33,231 nt of DNA from Tissierellia bacterium (GTDB lineage Bacteria; Bacillota; Clostridia; Tissierellales; Tepidimicrobiaceae), in contig JAAYHM010000006.1 of assembly GCA_012735405.1 (NCBI GenBank), positions 1 through 33,231 of the forward strand. Direction: 5' to 3'. Numbering within the stretch: the stretch's first letter is position 1; each line of letters begins with the position of its first letter. Position numbers and translations under genes: made by a program. Below, in pieces: positions 4,451 to 22,793 of this stretch. The notes under the pieces are model-generated. The model saw nothing but the letters and a program-made list of their open reading frames with translations. It was not told the DNA's origin and did no database searches.

Positions 4451-5593
4451 ATGATATATTTTGACAATGGAGCTACAACCTTTCCAAAACCTGATGAAGT
4501 TTATGATGCAATAATGAAAGCCATGAAAGAATATGGTGCTAACCCAGGTAGATCAGGCCATAAATTAGCTATAAGAATGGGAAGGGAAATTTATGAAACA
4601 AGGGAGTTGCTAGCTAAACTTTTTAATATAGATAATCCTATGAATATTATATTTACCTCCAATTGTACAGAAAGCCTAAACCTGGCAATCAAAGGGATAT
4701 TAAGTAAAGGGGATCATGTTATTACTTCTTCTATGGAGCATAATTCAGTACTTCGTCCTTTAGCGGCTTTAGAAAAAGAAGGAGTAGAATTAACCATTGT
4801 AAAAGGAGACCCTACAGGGAAGATAAAAGTAGAGGATATTGCTAATAGCATTAGGAGCAATACTAAGCTAATAGTAATTACCCATGTTTCTAATTTAACT
4901 GGTACAATTATGCCTATAGAAGAAATAGGCAGGATAGCTAAGGAAAAGGGCATACTCCTCCTTGTGGATGCTGCTCAATCAGCAGGAGTTTATGATATAG
5001 ATGTAAAAAAGATGAATATAGATATGTTGGCTTTTCCTGGTCACAAGGGCTTGTTGGGACCCCAAGGAACTGGAGGCCTTTATATCAGAGAAGGACTCTT
5101 GTTAAAGGAAATAAAACAAGGTGGGACAGGAAGCTTTTCTCATGTACTAGACATGCCAGATATATTACCAGACAGATATGAAAGCGGAACCTTAAATGGT
5201 CCAGGCATAGTCGGACTTGGTGCAGGTATAAGATATATTTTAAATAAGGGTATAGAAAATATAAGAAAACATGAAGAGGAGCTAACTAAACACTTTATAG
5301 AGGGATTAATGCAAATTGATAAGGTGAAGGTATATGGCCCATTAAATGAAAAGGAACAGGGAGCTGTAGTATCTATAAATATAGGTGATGAAGATTCTTC
5401 TGAAATAAGCTTTATTTTAGATGAAAAATATGATATACAAGTTAGGCCAGGTCTCCACTGTGCACCTTTAGCCCATAAGACCATAGGTACTTTTGAACAG
5501 GGAGTAGTTAGATTTAGCTTTGGACCTTTTAATACTCATGACCAGATTGACTATGCTTTAAAGGCAATAAGAGAAATAGCTAAGGAGGTATAA
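4451..5593 (+). CDS. Cysteine desulfurase family protein (class V aminotransferase)
   Basis: A 380-aa PLP enzyme of the NifS/SufS-like class V group, resembling the stand-alone Clostridial subfamily of cysteine-desulfurase-like proteins. The N-terminal IYFDNGATTFPKP is diagnostic. The cofactor pocket shows D173/Q176 (VDAAQSAGV) and the Schiff-base lysine K199 in FPGHKGLLGPQGTGG. The likely persulfide cysteine is C337 in VRPGLHCAPLAHKTIGT, so sulfur transfer from cysteine is plausible. No iron-sulfur scaffold (iscU/sufU) gene is adjacent, and the physiological acceptor is unknown. It starts a run of closely spaced genes: DUF4446 follows after 8 bp and the lipid kinase after that. Confidence 0.88.
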   Translation: MIYFDNGATTFPKPDEVYDAIMKAMKEYGANPGRSGHKLAIRMGREIYETRELLAKLFNIDNPMNIIFTSNCTESLNLAIKGILSKGDHVITSSMEHNSVLRPLAALEKEGVELTIVKGDPTGKIKVEDIANSIRSNTKLIVITHVSNLTGTIMPIEEIGRIAKEKGILLLVDAAQSAGVYDIDVKKMNIDMLAFPGHKGLLGPQGTGGLYIREGLLLKEIKQGGTGSFSHVLDMPDILPDRYESGTLNGPGIVGLGAGIRYILNKGIENIRKHEEELTKHFIEGLMQIDKVKVYGPLNEKEQGAVVSINIGDEDSSEISFILDEKYDIQVRPGLHCAPLAHKTIGTFEQGVVRFSFGPFNTHDQIDYALKAIREIAKEV

Positions 5594-8116: not shown

Positions 8117-8133
8117 GGTTACAAAATAGTTAC
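8117..8133 (+). promoter_or_regulatory. WalR-like direct repeat in the M23 gene leader
   Basis: gGTTAC-aaaat-aGTTAC matches the WalR consensus TGTWAH-N5-TGTWAH at five of six positions in each half, with the correct 5-bp gap. WalR controls cell-wall hydrolases in Bacillus and Staphylococcus, and the gene behind it is such an enzyme. The site lies downstream of the predicted transcription start, which would favour repression, unless the TACAAT inside it acts as a second -10. Confidence 0.4.
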
Positions 8134-8153
8134 AATACCTCAACAAAATTAAT

Positions 8154-8195
8154 ATGGTTTTATTTAATCCAATGATGAGGAGGTATTAAAACCAT
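8154..8195 (+). promoter_or_regulatory. Start-codon hairpin of the M23 gene
   Basis: ATGGTTTTA (8154-8162) is the exact reverse complement of TAAAACCAT (8187-8195). The 3' arm includes the first two bases of the ATG and the loop holds the AGGAGGT. Folding would limit initiation, so the element may act in translational control. This is inferred from pairing alone. Confidence 0.4.
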
Positions 8196-9633
8196 GTCAG
8201 AATCAAACAACCCAGCTTCTCAGCCATCCACTCCAAACACGGGGACTAATGGTAATGAGAAACTAGGGTTTCTAAAAGAGTCAATAAACAAAAGATACAG
8301 TTTTAAAAAACTAGTCTTAACCCTTATGCTTGTAGTTATAGGGGTGTGTGTTTTCAGTATCTATAAAATCAATGAAATTAGAACCAGAGCTTACATAGTT
8401 TACTATGGCAACAATGAAGTAGGAATATTAAGGGATAAGGAAAAGGCAGAAGAAATATTACAGCGATTACAAGCTGAGCTGTGTAATACATATAATAGCA
8501 ACATTGTCCTAAAGGATACTTTAAAATTTGAAGAGACTCATGCTAAGGACAGTATGTTGACTTCCTTGGAGGAATTAAAAGCAAATATTAAATCCAATTT
8601 GACCTACAATGTAAAGGGATATGTACTAGTAGTTGATGGTAAAGAATTAGGCTACAGTAATTCCAAAGAAGAACTGGAAAATATTTTGGAAACAATTAAA
8701 GAACCATATTTAAATGAAGAAGAAGAGAACAATATATTGAATGTAGGGTTTGTTGAGGATGTTAAAATTGTAGAAAAGGAATTTCCTTTGAATAGAATAA
8801 AGGATGGAGAAGAAATATTACAATATATTTTAGAAGGTTCGGAAGAAATTAGGACCCACACTGTAGAAGTAGGAGAAAGTCTGTGGACTATAGCAAAAAT
8901 ATATGATGTATCTGTTGACGATTTAATTGTAGCTAATTCAGACAAGGATCCTGAAAGATTACAAATTGGTGATGAAATTAAGCTTACAGTCCCAAAGCCC
9001 TTAATTACAGTTGAAGTTGTTGAAGAGGTTGAATACACTGCAGATGTTGATTTTGATATAAAAACTGAATATGATGACAATATGTATAAAACCCAAAGCA
9101 AGGTCAAGGTAAAGGGTGAAAAGGGAGAAACAAAATATCTGGCCAAGGTTACCAAGCACAATGGCATAGTTGTAAATGAAGAGATATTAAAGGAAGAGGT
9201 TATTAAAAAGCCTGTTGACCAAGTAGTGGTGCAAGGTACCAAGGAACTGCCAAAGACTGCTGCAACTGGTGCTTTCATAATGCCTACAAGGGGAAGATTA
9301 TCTTCCAGGTATGGAATGAGAGGCGGAAGAATGCATTATGGAATAGATATAGCAGCACCATCAGGAACAGCTATAAAGGCAGCAGATGGAGGAAAAGTAG
9401 TTTACGCAGGCTGGAAGGGTTCCTATGGGTATATGGTTGAAATAGATCATGAAAATGGCTATAAAACTAGATATGCCCACTGCAGTAAAATTGAAGTTAA
9501 GGTTGGTGACAGAGTATACAAGGGTCAAATCATAGCCAGAGTTGGAAATACTGGCAGGTCTACAGGATCTCACCTGCATTTTGAAGTACTTAAAAATGGT
9601 GTAAATGTTAATCCATCTGGATATGTAAAATAA
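8194..9633 (+). CDS. Membrane-anchored LysM-G5-M23 endopeptidase
   Basis: A 479-aa cell-wall enzyme. A basic, low-complexity cytoplasmic N-terminus precedes one membrane helix (about residues 40-57, VLTLMLVVIGVCVFSIY). The extracellular part has a region of unknown fold (65-215), a LysM peptidoglycan-binding domain (222-266, THTVEVGESLWTIAKIYDVS), a G5 domain (about 270-348, EEVEYTADVDFDIKTEY) and a C-terminal LytM/M23 domain (about 377-475). The zinc site is complete: H381 and D385 in HYGID, and H460 and H462 in SHLHFE, with H429 in RYAHC. It should cleave peptide cross-bridges in peptidoglycan. The leader carries a WalR-like site, and a shared terminator separates it from the convergent subtilase gene. 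Confidence 0.95.
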   Translation: MSESNNPASQPSTPNTGTNGNEKLGFLKESINKRYSFKKLVLTLMLVVIGVCVFSIYKINEIRTRAYIVYYGNNEVGILRDKEKAEEILQRLQAELCNTYNSNIVLKDTLKFEETHAKDSMLTSLEELKANIKSNLTYNVKGYVLVVDGKELGYSNSKEELENILETIKEPYLNEEEENNILNVGFVEDVKIVEKEFPLNRIKDGEEILQYILEGSEEIRTHTVEVGESLWTIAKIYDVSVDDLIVANSDKDPERLQIGDEIKLTVPKPLITVEVVEEVEYTADVDFDIKTEYDDNMYKTQSKVKVKGEKGETKYLAKVTKHNGIVVNEEILKEEVIKKPVDQVVVQGTKELPKTAATGAFIMPTRGRLSSRYGMRGGRMHYGIDIAAPSGTAIKAADGGKVVYAGWKGSYGYMVEIDHENGYKTRYAHCSKIEVKVGDRVYKGQIIARVGNTGRSTGSHLHFEVLKNGVNVNPSGYVK

Positions 9634-17233: not shown

Positions 17234-17262
17234 TTGACAATATTAATTTATTATTAGATAAT
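17234..17262 (+). promoter_or_regulatory. Sigma-A promoter of walR-walK
   Basis: Consensus TTGACA (17234-17239), a 17-bp spacer and GATAAT (17257-17262) predict a start near 17269. This is only about nine bases before the ATG at 17278, which supports moving the walR start to 17314. No TGTAAT-type WalR half-sites are visible around this promoter. Confidence 0.9.
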
Positions 17263-17313: not shown

Positions 17314-18006
17314 ATGAATAGAAAGATATTAGTGGTTGATGATGAAAAGTCTATTGCAGATATAATAAAATTTAATCTAGAAAAGGAAGGCTTTACTGTT
17401 GAACTATCCTATGATGGTGAGGATGCCATTGAAAAAATTTATAATGGAAATCCGGACCTTATAATATTGGATATAATGCTTCCTAAAAAGGATGGATTTG
17501 AAGTATTAAGGGAAATAAGGACAAGCATTACTACACCAGTTCTCATGCTTACAGCAAAGGAAGAAGAGGTGGACAAGGTACTGGGATTGGAATTAGGTGC
17601 CGATGATTACATAACAAAACCCTTTAGTATGAGGGAATTAGTTGCCAGGGTTAAGGCTAATTTAAGAAGGATTGAAATGAACAATGGGGACTTGAACAAT
17701 GCTGAGATACTAAGGGTTGGAGATTTAACCATTAACCAGAATAAATATGAAGTAAGAAAAAATGGAAAGATTATAGATTTAACCTTAAGGGAATATGAGC
17801 TACTTAAGTTTTTAGCATCAAATATTGATCAGGTCTTTACAAGAGAGCAGCTTTTAGAAAAGGTATGGGGATACGAATATTATGGGGATGTAAGGACTGT
17901 TGATGTTACCATTAGAAGGTTAAGGGAAAAAATAGAAGAAAAGGATGGACAGTACAAATATATAATGACCAAAAGAGGGGTAGGATATTATTTCAGGAGG
18001 GGCTAG
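17314..18006 (+). CDS. walR: WalR response regulator (OmpR/PhoB family)
   Basis: The start is ATG 17314 with GGTGTGAT upstream, giving 230 aa; the track start 12 codons earlier lies next to the promoter. The receiver domain has D10/E11, the phosphoacceptor D53 (LIILDIMLPKKDG) and the conserved lysine in DYITKPFSMRE. The winged-helix domain (about 130-230) contains LTLREYELLKFLASN and GDVRTVDVTIRRLREKIE. With walK, yycH, yycI, yycJ and htrA nearby, this is the essential cell-wall regulator WalR (YycF), not another PhoB-like protein. Confidence 0.96.
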   Translation: MNRKILVVDDEKSIADIIKFNLEKEGFTVELSYDGEDAIEKIYNGNPDLIILDIMLPKKDGFEVLREIRTSITTPVLMLTAKEEEVDKVLGLELGADDYITKPFSMRELVARVKANLRRIEMNNGDLNNAEILRVGDLTINQNKYEVRKNGKIIDLTLREYELLKFLASNIDQVFTREQLLEKVWGYEYYGDVRTVDVTIRRLREKIEEKDGQYKYIMTKRGVGYYFRRG

Positions 18007-18009
18007 TTA

Positions 18010-19809
18010 ATGTTCTCAAGTATTAAGTGGAAATTTGTTACAGTATACCTATTACTGGTACTTATGGCCATGATAATAGTAGGGGTATTTATAGTACAAA
18101 GATTTGAAGCTCAACAGTTGGAAAATAGAAAGAACACCTTAATAAAGCAGATAGAAACTTTAATTAGTAGCTCTGATTATTTATCAGAGGATGACTGGTT
18201 AGAATATATAGAGGATATACAAAATACTTTAAACAGATGGAGATTTAGTGGTACTGAGGTTCTTTACATAATTTATGACATTGATATACCTAGAATTATA
18301 GCTACCTCCCATATTAAATATGATGAAATAAACGGGGCAAATGCTCTAGCCTACAAATTCTTAGACCCATCTTTAATATATGCTGCCTACAATGGTGAAA
18401 TTGCAGATGCTACAAAGGAAGATTATAATGAAAATACAAGATTTCAACATGTAGCCTATCCAGTAGTTAATGAAATTGGCCAGGTTAAGGGTATTTTGTA
18501 TATGACTGATGATATTCAGGATGTTTACAGGACTATTAATGCCACTAAAACCATATTAATTAGTGCTACCATGTTAGCCTTGGTTATAACTGTAATATTG
18601 GGTTTTTTAATTGCAAGCAGTATTACTGGACCAATAAGGGATGTGACTAAAAAGGCTGAAAAAATGGCAAAGGGAGATTTTGAGCAGTTTGTTGAAGTAA
18701 AGTCTGATGATGAAATAGGTCAACTGGCCAGCATGTTTAACTATTTAACCTTAAAATTAAAGGATACAATCCAGGAAATGGATTTGGAAAAAAGCAAATT
18801 AAATACCATATTTAATTACATGGCTGATGGAGTAATAGCAGTTGACACAAATGGTCAGTTAATCCATGCAAATCCTGTAGCAATAAAAATACTAGATTTA
18901 GAAAAAATTAAGGATGAGCTCTTTTATAAACAAAGGCCCTTTCCCATGGAAATAATTAATTTAGATAATATAGACTTTGATAATCCAGATACTCATGAAG
19001 GCAGTAAGATGGTAAAAATAAAGGATTCCGTATATCAATTAAAATACGCCCCTTTCCGCAATGAAAAAAATAATGTAGGCGGGATAATTATAGTATTTCA
19101 AGACATAACAGAACATCATAAACTGGATAATATGAGAAAGGAATTTGTGGCTAATGTGTCCCATGAGCTAAAAACCCCTATAACTACAATTAAGTCCTAT
19201 ACTGAAACCTTAATGGATTATATGGAAATGGAGCCAGAATTATCACATAAATTCCTTACTGTAATAGACAATGAATGTGATAGGATGACTAGGATAGTAA
19301 GGGACTTGTTGCAGTTATCTAATCTGGACTATAATAAAACTGAATGGAGTAAAGAAGAATGTGAAGTTAAGGAGTTTATTGAAGATATTATATTAAAGTT
19401 AGAATTCTCCATTAAGGAAAAGAACCATAAGCTTACTTTAAACATAGATGAAAATCTGCCACATATTTTTGTTGATAAAGATGGTATAGAACAGGTTATA
19501 CTAAATGTAATATCAAATGCTATAAAATACACTCCCCAGGGAGGCCATATTGAAGTATCTGTTACAAATAAGGATGGAAAAGTAGTGGTTAATGTAAAGG
19601 ACAATGGAATAGGTATACCGGAAGAAGATATAGATAGAATTTTTGAAAGGTTTTATAGGGTTGATAAGGGAAGAAGCAGAGACTTAGGAGGTACAGGATT
19701 GGGTCTTTCCATTGCTAAGGAGATAGTTGAAGCAAATGGTGGTCAGATAAAGCTAAGTTCTGAACTTGGTATAGGTACAGAAGTTGACATAATTCTACCC
19801 ATTTCCTAA
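18010..19809 (+). CDS. walK: WalK sensor histidine kinase
   Basis: A 599-aa kinase starting 3 bp after walR, behind AGGAGGGG. It has two membrane helices (about residues 10-29 and 180-203) enclosing an extracellular sensor of about 150 residues, then HAMP (about 205-258), PAS (about 262-368, IFNYMADGVIAVDTNGQLIHANP), HisKA with phosphoacceptor H385 (VSHELKTPI), and HATPase_c with N503 (VISNAIKYTP), DNGIG (531-535) and the GTGLGLSIAKE box. This is the full WalK (YycG) layout. It should phosphorylate WalR in response to the state of the cell wall. Confidence 0.96.
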   Translation: MFSSIKWKFVTVYLLLVLMAMIIVGVFIVQRFEAQQLENRKNTLIKQIETLISSSDYLSEDDWLEYIEDIQNTLNRWRFSGTEVLYIIYDIDIPRIIATSHIKYDEINGANALAYKFLDPSLIYAAYNGEIADATKEDYNENTRFQHVAYPVVNEIGQVKGILYMTDDIQDVYRTINATKTILISATMLALVITVILGFLIASSITGPIRDVTKKAEKMAKGDFEQFVEVKSDDEIGQLASMFNYLTLKLKDTIQEMDLEKSKLNTIFNYMADGVIAVDTNGQLIHANPVAIKILDLEKIKDELFYKQRPFPMEIINLDNIDFDNPDTHEGSKMVKIKDSVYQLKYAPFRNEKNNVGGIIIVFQDITEHHKLDNMRKEFVANVSHELKTPITTIKSYTETLMDYMEMEPELSHKFLTVIDNECDRMTRIVRDLLQLSNLDYNKTEWSKEECEVKEFIEDIILKLEFSIKEKNHKLTLNIDENLPHIFVDKDGIEQVILNVISNAIKYTPQGGHIEVSVTNKDGKVVVNVKDNGIGIPEEDIDRIFERFYRVDKGRSRDLGGTGLGLSIAKEIVEANGGQIKLSSELGIGTEVDIILPIS

Positions 19810-19864
19810 TGTAATTTTATTTTAATTTCACTGTAATATAATTGTAATATTTCTGGTGTATAAT
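19810..19864 (+). promoter_or_regulatory. Phased WalR box array and internal promoter after walK
   Basis: Half-sites recur every 11 bp: TGTAAT (19810), TTTAAT (19821, one mismatch), TGTAAT (19832) and TGTAAT (19843). The last two with ATAAT between them match the WalR consensus TGTWAH-N5-TGTWAH exactly. The array begins at the base after the walK stop and is followed by TATAAT (19859-19864), with no good -35. The promoter-proximal box occupies the -35 region, the usual geometry for activation by an OmpR-family regulator. It would drive the secreted-protein gene and probably yycH-yycI. Confidence 0.75.
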
Positions 19865-19901
19865 ATAACTGCCCTTATTGGAGGTTAAAGGAGGATAGAA
19901 G

Positions 19902-20363: not shown

Positions 20364-20391
20364 TTACCATTGATAGAAGGGGATGAATATA

Positions 20392-21819
20392 GTGTCTAAA
20401 GAAAGATTTAAAACTATTCTGCTTCTGTCACTGGTATGTTTGAGCCTATATTTAGTCACTAAGGTATGGGTTGAGTTTCCTTACGGGACTAGTTTTGACT
20501 TTCGAGAGGAAGAAATAAAAGAATTGGAAAGCTACTTATCTATAGATCTTATTAGGCCTAATAAATATTTAGTTAATTTTAATGAAGATAGCCATACAAT
20601 ATTTTATAGTGATATAGATAATAATCTATGGACAACTGCTTATTCTTCTTTGGCAAGTATTCTGTCTTCTGATGAGGTAGAGACAGAAGAGATCTCCAAG
20701 GAAGAATATATTTCATACCATGACAAAAGGTCCATAGTTTTTTATTTTCCTGAACAATTTAATGTGTATATACTGGCCAGATTTCTAGATGTGCCACAGC
20801 CTAATGATATTGTTGAAAAGATACAAGAGGTAGACAGTATATATTTTCATTTAGGAAATGATGAGCCTTTTCTAATACTTAGCAAGGAAGATTTTCATCT
20901 TAAAATATTTGAACCTACCATAAAGCTTGAAGCTCTAAAATCAAAGATTAGTGCTATGGAAAATATAGGTAATATTACCTATTACTATCCTATGAGGGAT
21001 ACTGTAGACGTCAACAACAATATATATATTCCCGTTAAAATGAGTAAATCTATCCCAGTGGTTTATGTTGAAAATGAAATAAATACGGATAATATTGAAG
21101 ATTTAAGAAATATAGCAGAACTATTTTTCCAGAAAGATATTGATTATATAAGAGAGATAGTTGAAAATAATGGTTCTGTAATATATTTACATGATGATAA
21201 GGTGTTAAAGATAAACTATAGGGGATTTTTGGAATATATTGCTCCTTTAGAGGAGACAGTTAATGAAAGAAATTTATATATAAGCTTAGTTACAGCCTCT
21301 GACTTTTTATTTTCTAATTTAGCCTTGCCAAAGAACTTGTATTTAAGCAAGATTGAAGAAATTGAATCTGGAGAAAATTTAGGGTATAGATTTACTTTTA
21401 AATATAGAATAGGTGGTTTACCGGTAATACTTAAAAGCGATGTAGTAGAGGATTTTATTCAATTGGAAGTATTTAATAAGTATGTTACAAACTATAAAAG
21501 ATTTATAAGGAGACAAATGGATGGAACATATGATGCTATGGACAATAGGGTAATGTTATCTGCTTATGATATTATAAATATGAATTATGAGCTTATTAGA
21601 CAGGATCACATAGCTAAATATAATATACAAGATGAAGATGAGGAATTCATAAAGAAAGAAATACTGTCAAGGATAGAGGATATATACATTGCCTATGTTG
21701 ACCCCTGTGAAAACAAAACAGGAGAAAGGCTTATAGGTGTCTGGATATTGAAAATGGAAGATTATATATATGCATTTGATGTATACAATGGTAATTTAGT
21801 TGTTAAAAAAGAACAATAA
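20392..21819 (+). CDS. yycH: YycH (WalH) regulator of WalK
   Basis: The start is placed at GTG 20392 because GAAGGGG touches the track ATG at 20383 and is correctly spaced only for the GTG; this gives 475 aa. One N-terminal membrane helix (ILLLSLVCLSLYLVTKVW) is followed by a large extracellular part. Segments such as PNKYLVNFNEDSHTIFYSD and the C-terminal IYIAYVDPCENKTGERLIGVWI fit the YycH family, although overall similarity is low as usual for this protein. In Bacillus YycH and YycI hold WalK in check through their membrane helices; in Staphylococcus they activate it. Confidence 0.85.
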   Translation: MSKERFKTILLLSLVCLSLYLVTKVWVEFPYGTSFDFREEEIKELESYLSIDLIRPNKYLVNFNEDSHTIFYSDIDNNLWTTAYSSLASILSSDEVETEEISKEEYISYHDKRSIVFYFPEQFNVYILARFLDVPQPNDIVEKIQEVDSIYFHLGNDEPFLILSKEDFHLKIFEPTIKLEALKSKISAMENIGNITYYYPMRDTVDVNNNIYIPVKMSKSIPVVYVENEINTDNIEDLRNIAELFFQKDIDYIREIVENNGSVIYLHDDKVLKINYRGFLEYIAPLEETVNERNLYISLVTASDFLFSNLALPKNLYLSKIEEIESGENLGYRFTFKYRIGGLPVILKSDVVEDFIQLEVFNKYVTNYKRFIRRQMDGTYDAMDNRVMLSAYDIINMNYELIRQDHIAKYNIQDEDEEFIKKEILSRIEDIYIAYVDPCENKTGERLIGVWILKMEDYIYAFDVYNGNLVVKKEQ

Positions 21820-21842
21820 TGACTGCTTGGATGGTGAAATTC

Positions 21843-22685
21843 ATGGATTGGTCAAAGGCTAAGACCATATTGATTATAGCATTTATTATTACTAATTTAT
21901 TTATTTCTATAGTAATTTTAAACAATAGACCAAAAGGAGAACCAACCTTATCAAGGGACTTTATTTCCAATGTAGAACAATTACTGGAGGAAAAGAATAT
22001 CCATATTGAAGCCAGTATTCCGGAAGAAATTCCCTATTTAAATTCTATGATTGTGGAATTTGAAAGGGCAAATAGCCACTTTTTAAATAAGGCATATTTT
22101 AATAATAAAGGCCGTATTCAACAGGGGCAAGGCTTAAGTGAAATAGTTAAGGGCTTAGAGTCAATTCTTATAATAAATGATAGATTAATTATTTATGAAA
22201 ATAAGAATAGCAGCAACAAATATCCTACTCTTAATATGGACAAGGCTATTGAAATAGCTCAGGAATTTTTGGAAACTGGAGAATTTGATACATCTGATAT
22301 GAAGCTTACATATGCAAAGGAGGAAAAAGAAGTATTTTACTTGGAGTATTCTAAGGTATATGAAGACACTTTTGTTGAAAGGGCCTATACTAATTTTCAG
22401 ATAGATAAAAGAGGGGTTAAAAAATTTGAAAGGCTTTGGCTAAATGTTAAAGAATTAGGAGATACAAAGATATATATAAGTACAGCTCCAAAATCCTTAT
22501 TGAATCTACTGGGCATGAAGGATATTTATAATAAGACTATTACAGATATCTCCCTCTGCTATTATTTTGAGCCAGAGAAACATGAGTATATTGAAGAACC
22601 GGGAGAAGCTAAACAGGGAAAGGCAGTTCCTGCATGGAGGGTACAGTTTGAAGATGGCTATAAGGTATTTATTGACGAATATTAA
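21843..22685 (+). CDS. yycI: YycI (WalI) regulator of WalK
   Basis: The preferred start is ATG 21843, which gives MDWSKAKTILIIAFIITNLF, the typical YycI N-terminus (280 aa). The track ATG at 21819 overlaps the yycH stop by one base and adds eight residues. A single membrane helix is followed by an extracellular YycI domain ending AVPAWRVQFEDGYKVFIDEY. Gene order walR-walK-x-yycH-yycI matches the wal locus apart from the inserted secreted-protein gene. A strong terminator follows, so the transcript probably ends here rather than continuing to yycJ. Confidence 0.9.
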   Translation: MDWSKAKTILIIAFIITNLFISIVILNNRPKGEPTLSRDFISNVEQLLEEKNIHIEASIPEEIPYLNSMIVEFERANSHFLNKAYFNNKGRIQQGQGLSEIVKGLESILIINDRLIIYENKNSSNKYPTLNMDKAIEIAQEFLETGEFDTSDMKLTYAKEEKEVFYLEYSKVYEDTFVERAYTNFQIDKRGVKKFERLWLNVKELGDTKIYISTAPKSLLNLLGMKDIYNKTITDISLCYYFEPEKHEYIEEPGEAKQGKAVPAWRVQFEDGYKVFIDEY

Positions 22686-22744
22686 AAGAAATTAAAAGTT
22701 TTGTTATGTTACTTTCAAATTTCTGCAAAATGAAATTATGATAT

Positions 22745-22777
22745 AAAAAACTTGCAATTATCTATTGCAAGTTTTTT
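22745..22777 (+). terminator. Terminator after yycI
   Basis: CTTGCAAT (22751-22758) pairs with ATTGCAAG (22764-22771) around a 5-nt loop. The stem is lengthened by A's before and T's after it (22745-22750 with 22772-22777). It divides the wal operon from the carbon cluster. Confidence 0.9.
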
Positions 22778-22793
22778 ATTTTTGTGGTAAAAT
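22765..22793 (+). promoter_or_regulatory. Promoter candidate for the Re-citrate synthase operon
   Basis: TTGCAA (22765-22770), a 17-bp spacer and TAAAAT (22788-22793) predict a start near 22800. The -35 lies inside the 3' arm of the yycI terminator. No better promoter is visible between there and the GTG at 22911. Confidence 0.5.

Follow-up and report, generated by a model that had tools for sequence, protein, structure and literature searches.

A conserved array of four half-sites behind walK as the probable operator of a WalR-activated internal promoter in the wal locus

Many Gram-positive bacteria cannot live without the WalRK system, which is also a candidate drug target. In the window analysed here (the whole stretch of 33,231 nucleotides), walR and walK are followed by the gene of an exported protein and by yycH and yycI. 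A series of WalR-type half-sites starts on the first base after the walK stop codon (TAA, 19807-19809). The locus raises the question of whether this series is an operator, which regulator reads it and what its control over the downstream genes would mean for the kinase. The coordinates of the features are collected in Table 1.

Table 1. Features of the window that bear on the array behind walK.
Feature	Position	Strand	Remark
Second WalR-type box, TGTAAC-N5-TGTAAC	8118-8134	-	Perfect; M23/G5/LysM hydrolase gene 8194-9633
Likely walR promoter, TTGACA-N17-GATAAT	17234-17262	+	Without WalR-type box
walR (yycF), proposed regulator of the array	17314-18006	+	NCBIfam equivalog YycF NF040534, above cut-off
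walK (yycG)	18010-19809	+	Best NCBIfam model HK_WalK NF033092, 548 bits, under the cut-off of 725
Half-site 1, TGTAAT	19810-19815	+	Distal pair; sequence read, 51 homologous promoters
Half-site 2, TTTAAT (consensus YTTAAT)	19821-19826	+	Distal pair; sequence read, 51 homologues
Half-site 3, TGTAAT	19832-19837	+	Proximal pair; sequence read, homologue alignment
Half-site 4, TGTAAT	19843-19848	+	Proximal pair, over the -35 region
-10 hexamer, TATAAT	19859-19864	+	Exactly 10 nt past half-site 4
Good RBS of the exported-protein gene, aaaggagg	19887-19894	+	Sequence read
Exported protein, 153 aa	19902-20363	+	N-terminal hydrophobic helix, Ig-like beta-sandwich, C-terminal helix
yycH (walH)	20383-21819	+	Orthologue similarity, conserved position
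yycI (walI)	21819-22685	+	Pfam YycI PF09648, E = 8e-6, just under cut-off
Terminator-like stem and T-run after yycI	22743-22779	+	Likely transcript end

The preliminary description of this DNA had reported four half-sites in steps of 11 bp leading into a TATAAT, the last pair being a perfect WalR box, and direct reading of the sequence bears out both statements. The step is exactly 11 bp throughout the series. Half-sites 3 and 4 form an exact TGTWAH-N5-TGTWAH direct repeat, which is the consensus of the B. subtilis WalR box, and no other exact TGTWAT-N5-TGTWAT exists in the window. Pairs taken singly, with two mismatches at most, do not exceed chance frequency there, and for this reason the strength of the array lies in the series and in its location. 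The four-site series with 11-bp steps scores 23 of 24, the maximum of the window on both strands (the runner-up scores 20), whereas 200 dinucleotide-preserving shuffles of the window reached a maximum of 20. Searched for across all 2.2 Mb of the genome, the proximal pair with TATAAT 10 nt after it has a single match, and the reversed-pattern control has none. The array of four half-sites with its TATAAT is real.

The element is found behind walK in 28 of the 34 relatives that have walK, in the same register and with the same 10-nt gap to TATAAT. The proximal pair with TATAAT at this gap is present in the walK loci of 27 of 30 relatives (exact in 26 of them and with one mismatch in the other), the 28th genome with the array being G032. 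Across the homologues the proximal pair is placed 2 to 137 nt past the walK stop and the internal spacing is constant. Among 157 genomes spread across the class, no fewer than 21, from many families, have this element immediately after walK. A genome has the strict pattern about once, and 27 of the 32 exact matches in 41 genomes are situated at walK; the reversed pattern has zero matches in these 41 genomes and likewise in the 157-genome set. A location-blind scan with the four-site pattern covered 85,462 species genomes and gave 80 readable loci among the matches listed. Among these listed matches, walK ends at most 144 bp upstream in 71 of the 80 readable loci, and four further loci precede yycH/yycI, with walK out of range or not found. 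Among the named carriers are Alkaliphilus, Natronincola, Caloranaerobacter, Tepidibacter, Acetivibrio mesophilus, Filifactor alocis, Fusibacter and Geosporobacter. None of the seven genomes that lack walK has the strict array pattern, though the walRK-less G009 keeps a box at its M23 gene. The array is dedicated to the gene set of the wal locus, and the phasing of the half-sites, whose loss in close relatives had been named beforehand as a test, is kept in these and in distant relatives too.

Conservation also resolves the individual half-sites. The 51 homologous promoters were aligned on the proximal pair and the -10 alone, half-sites 1 and 2 being unused as anchors, and these two emerge as sharp peaks of information at 22 and 11 bases upstream. 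No information peak, and hence no fifth half-site, appears beyond half-site 1 in this alignment. Half-site 1 reads TGTAAN in 39 of the 51 promoters and TGTNAN in 47. Half-site 2, on the other hand, reads YTTAAN in 43 and TGTAAN in only three; since YTTAA is near-invariant at this place, it is a distinct conserved element and not a decayed TGTAAT. The earlier description of the four half-sites is refined in this respect.

The array goes together with the exported-protein gene. Each of the 28 order-level array carriers has this gene placed after walK and before yycH, as the previously claimed link to a secreted-protein gene ahead of yycH/yycI implies, and the array is absent in all six genomes in which yycH abuts walK without this gene (G021, G022, G023, G037, G038 and G039). 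The exact test of array versus exported-protein gene gives 7e-7, a value to be read as indicative because the genomes are related. The names YycH and YycI are sound, though the window copies are divergent and fall short of the Pfam cut-offs that their orthologues pass: the window YycH is 38% identical to the orthologue L049, which passes Pfam YycH (PF07435), and the position of yycH is identical in all relatives. MBL and HtrA genes follow walR-walK-yycH-yycI in most relatives. In the window, the segment 22911-30663 separates yycI from the MBL/HtrA pair, which directly follows yycI in the other genera of the family; by translation, its putative content comprises a homocitrate/citrate synthase-type enzyme, an aconitase, an isocitrate dehydrogenase and a pyruvate carboxylase.

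The exported proteins of the different genomes are about 150-310 aa long, with a mean column identity of 17%, and have in common a signal-like N-terminus and one domain. The AlphaFold model is a confident beta-sandwich (mean pLDDT 83.7, the domain mostly above 90). Foldseek returned Ig and FnIII-like domains alone, devoid of functional meaning, and no single informative fold match. Sixteen of the 38 members of the family alignment weakly match the Ig-like Glucodextran_B (PF09136; best 1.8e-6), and the window protein matches none of the curated Pfam or NCBIfam models, so that its assignment to a known family was dropped. The protein most likely represents an undescribed Ig-like family located between walK and yycH.

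The regulator encoded beside the array had been named WalR, and its NCBIfam match (Table 1) and its recognition helix, RTVDVTIRRLREKIE, bear out this identity at the level of sequence: the helix is identical to that of S. aureus WalR (2ZXJ), nearly identical to that of the B. subtilis protein (2D1V) and in agreement with the solved WalR/VicR structures. WalR is most likely the protein that reads the array. Some findings count against so simple an assignment. A paralogous regulator in G000 (C51) carries the helix RTVDVHIRRLREKIE, a single residue apart from that of WalR. In genome G009 (L260, C25:70000-89900) the unit from walR to yycI, with the exported-protein gene, is cleanly gone between the MBL and P-type ATPase genes and no close WalR was found, and a perfect box at the M23 hydrolase gene is kept; another regulator may read the motif there, or the loss may be recent. 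The genus g2 (G002, G014 and G018) has no walK match either, though the system is thought essential. The walRK promoter itself was said to lack such sites, which is correct for the window and general among the homologues: a perfect WalR-type box occurs in only one of 61 walR upstream regions, and such boxes were rejected as a feature of walR promoters.

The same box is found at two other envelope genes. In the window, the box listed in Table 1 sits just past the -10 of the promoter (TTGAAA/TATAAT) that serves the M23/G5/LysM hydrolase gene and is conserved in 16 of 19 loci; its place downstream of the -10 suggests repression. An exported NAGPA phosphodiester glycosidase (L070:1952-4792, minus strand) has the box upstream in G000 and in eight other genomes. 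Four half-sites in 11-bp steps (TGTCAC, TGTTAT, TGTAAT and TGTAAC) lie upstream of this gene at L070 ~4900-4970 (minus strand), and their proximal pair is kept in nine of 17 loci, most of the close ones having a conserved TATAAT about 21 nt further. Three TGTAA half-sites with 11-bp steps occur at L076:1501-1528 (minus strand; G000:C128), just after an AIR-synthase-like gene, and a clear target gene was not found for them. A perfect TGTAAT-N5-TGTAAT at L078:1160-1176 (minus strand) precedes the gene of an exported protein (L078:496-1104, minus strand) with a weak S-layer homology match. The exact boxes number just nine in the genome, of which two overlap each other, and a large WalR regulon defined by exact boxes is rejected on this count. 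WalR regulons elsewhere are larger than these few exact boxes, which also counts against WalR as the reader.

How the array would work is suggested by the architecture of the promoter. A -35 hexamer is missing in the 51 homologous promoters, where matches to it are rarer than at random positions, and a canonical -35 is ruled out. Instead, a direct repeat covers the -35 region and ends about 10 nt before the -10, the class II-like arrangement of OmpR/PhoB-type activators. At PhoB/PhoP activator sites the proximal pair is likewise placed in the -35 region, with a fixed gap of about 10 nt to the -10. The missing -35 and the PhoB/PhoP-like position of the pair favour activation by WalR-P through two adjacent dimers, and the array is probably the operator of a WalR-activated sigma-A promoter for the exported protein and YycH/YycI. 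Two dimers of phosphorylated WalR would occupy the same face of the DNA next to each other, the first on the proximal pair (~-39 to -23), in place of the missing hexamer, and the second on the distal pair (~-61 to -45). The proximal dimer would then bring the RNA polymerase to the TATAAT. From this arrangement we infer cooperative binding of WalR, activation and a transcription start near 19871, and the predicted transcript would span the exported-protein gene, yycH and yycI and end at the stem and T-run at 22743-22779. All the predictions of a WalR-driven promoter that sequence can address held, and lend it support.

Such a promoter would close a feedback loop. YycH and YycI are inhibitors of WalK in B. 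subtilis, and the S. aureus studies are split between activators and accessory proteins (PMC7299342, PMC5013275, PMC4801191). Since these proteins modulate WalK, the array would make a feedback loop independent of walRK transcription: the output of WalR would set the abundance of the modulators of its own kinase, and the transcription of walRK would be unchanged because its promoter carries no box. The exported protein may act on WalK or on the wall. The sign of the feedback would follow from the role of YycH/YycI: the loop would be homeostatic with inhibition of WalK, as in B. subtilis, and self-reinforcing with the activation that has been reported in S. aureus.

The same features can be read in other ways. 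The series could have arisen by chance or act as a UP element in an AT-rich region where single boxes are at chance frequency, with no regulator, an incidental TATAAT and yycH/yycI transcribed from the walR promoter alone. The probability of this is almost nil, given that the four-site score is above all 200 shuffles and that the array is conserved to the base across the class between drifting flanks and at a variable distance from the walK stop, with conserved G positions that AT-richness leaves unexplained; the shuffles and the conservation lead to its rejection. WalR could also act as a repressor, the array keeping the polymerase off until WalR activity drops. Repression by WalR is known for some targets in B. 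subtilis and S. aureus (PMC7299342, PMC10746227), and the box past the M23 -10 in the window has a repressor-like place. We nevertheless hold repression at the array to be very unlikely, as a promoter that has no -35 in 51 genomes should be weak without an activator and the constant distance of 10 nt from array to -10 matches the geometry of PhoB/PhoP activators. The M23 promoter is different, with TTGAAA at about 16 nt and a box in the opposite orientation beyond the -10.

A further reading keeps a genuine activator-dependent promoter and changes its reader, which would be a PhoP-type regulator or the C51 paralogue, alone or with WalR, the YTTAAT being the contact. Half-site 2 is indeed near the Pho half-site YTTAAC, which is paired at the pstS of relatives, the helix of the paralogue is one residue off that of WalR, and G009 retains its M23 box though devoid of walRK. 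However, TGTAA makes up three of the four half-sites, and the pstS of the relatives checked has no TGTAAY pair. G000 keeps the array and has no PstS match, the array is bound to the wal locus throughout the class, and in G009 array and wal genes were lost together. This alternative is hence unlikely, and PhoP as the sole binder was rejected on the pstS upstream regions of relatives and on G000. Activation by WalR is the reading that we retain.

WalR boxes and tandem sites of the OmpR family are known. The searchable papers do not describe an internal promoter of WalR type by which a feedback arm of the wal locus is defined. No description of the array promoter or of the exported protein was found in these, most subscription journals being outside reach. 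If the reading is true, the wal locus contains a feedback arm where none was thought present, and the exported protein is a new candidate modulator of WalK. A broader proposal is put forward tentatively, as a possibility about which doubt prevails: in much of the class, an internal promoter would be driven by WalR-P, the new Ig-like exported family and YycH/YycI would sense the wall or set the activity of WalK, and the YTTAAT would admit a PhoP-like second regulator, coupling wall growth to phosphate. The array motif would also be an unusually specific means of locating wal loci and WalR targets in hard-to-culture anaerobes.

The array is best placed by comparison with known systems. The WalR box TGTWAH-N5-TGTWAH of B. 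subtilis and S. aureus is found at lytE, yocH, iseA, sle1 and others (PMC7299342, PMC10746227, PMC9210968). The array shares with these boxes the half-site, the 5-nt spacer, the direct repeat, the linkage to envelope genes and the WalR recognition helix. It differs from them in having four sites in register, with YTTAAT as the second, inside the wal locus and at a fixed 10 nt before the -10. The gene order walR-walK-yycH-yycI is that of the walRKHI operon of both species, whereas the extra gene of an Ig-like exported protein and the internal promoter between walK and yycH are not part of it. In S. aureus, walRKHI has two promoters, both upstream of walR (PMC4801191). Muh et al. state that wal autoregulation is absent in C. 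difficile or other Firmicutes, and the C. difficile operon is walA-walR-walK-truA2, without yycH/yycI (PMC9210968). Given this different operon, their statement and the array are not in conflict.

Resemblances extend to other regulators of the family. The core binding region of B. subtilis PhoP consists of four TTAACA-type repeats in 11-bp steps, from about -66 to -22. Four tandem half-sites for two dimers, the proximal one over the -35, are common to both, but the array has TGTAAY instead of TTAACA and other target genes and, with three TGTAA and one YTTAAT, it is not a Pho box. The E. coli pho box of PhoB is an 11-bp direct repeat that ends about 10 nt before the -10 and replaces the -35; the geometry of repeat and -10 is alike, and sequence, phylum and physiology are not. 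In the SaeRS system of S. aureus, the response regulator drives SaeP and SaeQ, auxiliary modulators of its own kinase. A regulator that drives the modulators of its own kinase is also what is proposed here, although the kinase and the auxiliary proteins are unrelated and the Sae promoter also reads the genes of the kinase and the regulator.
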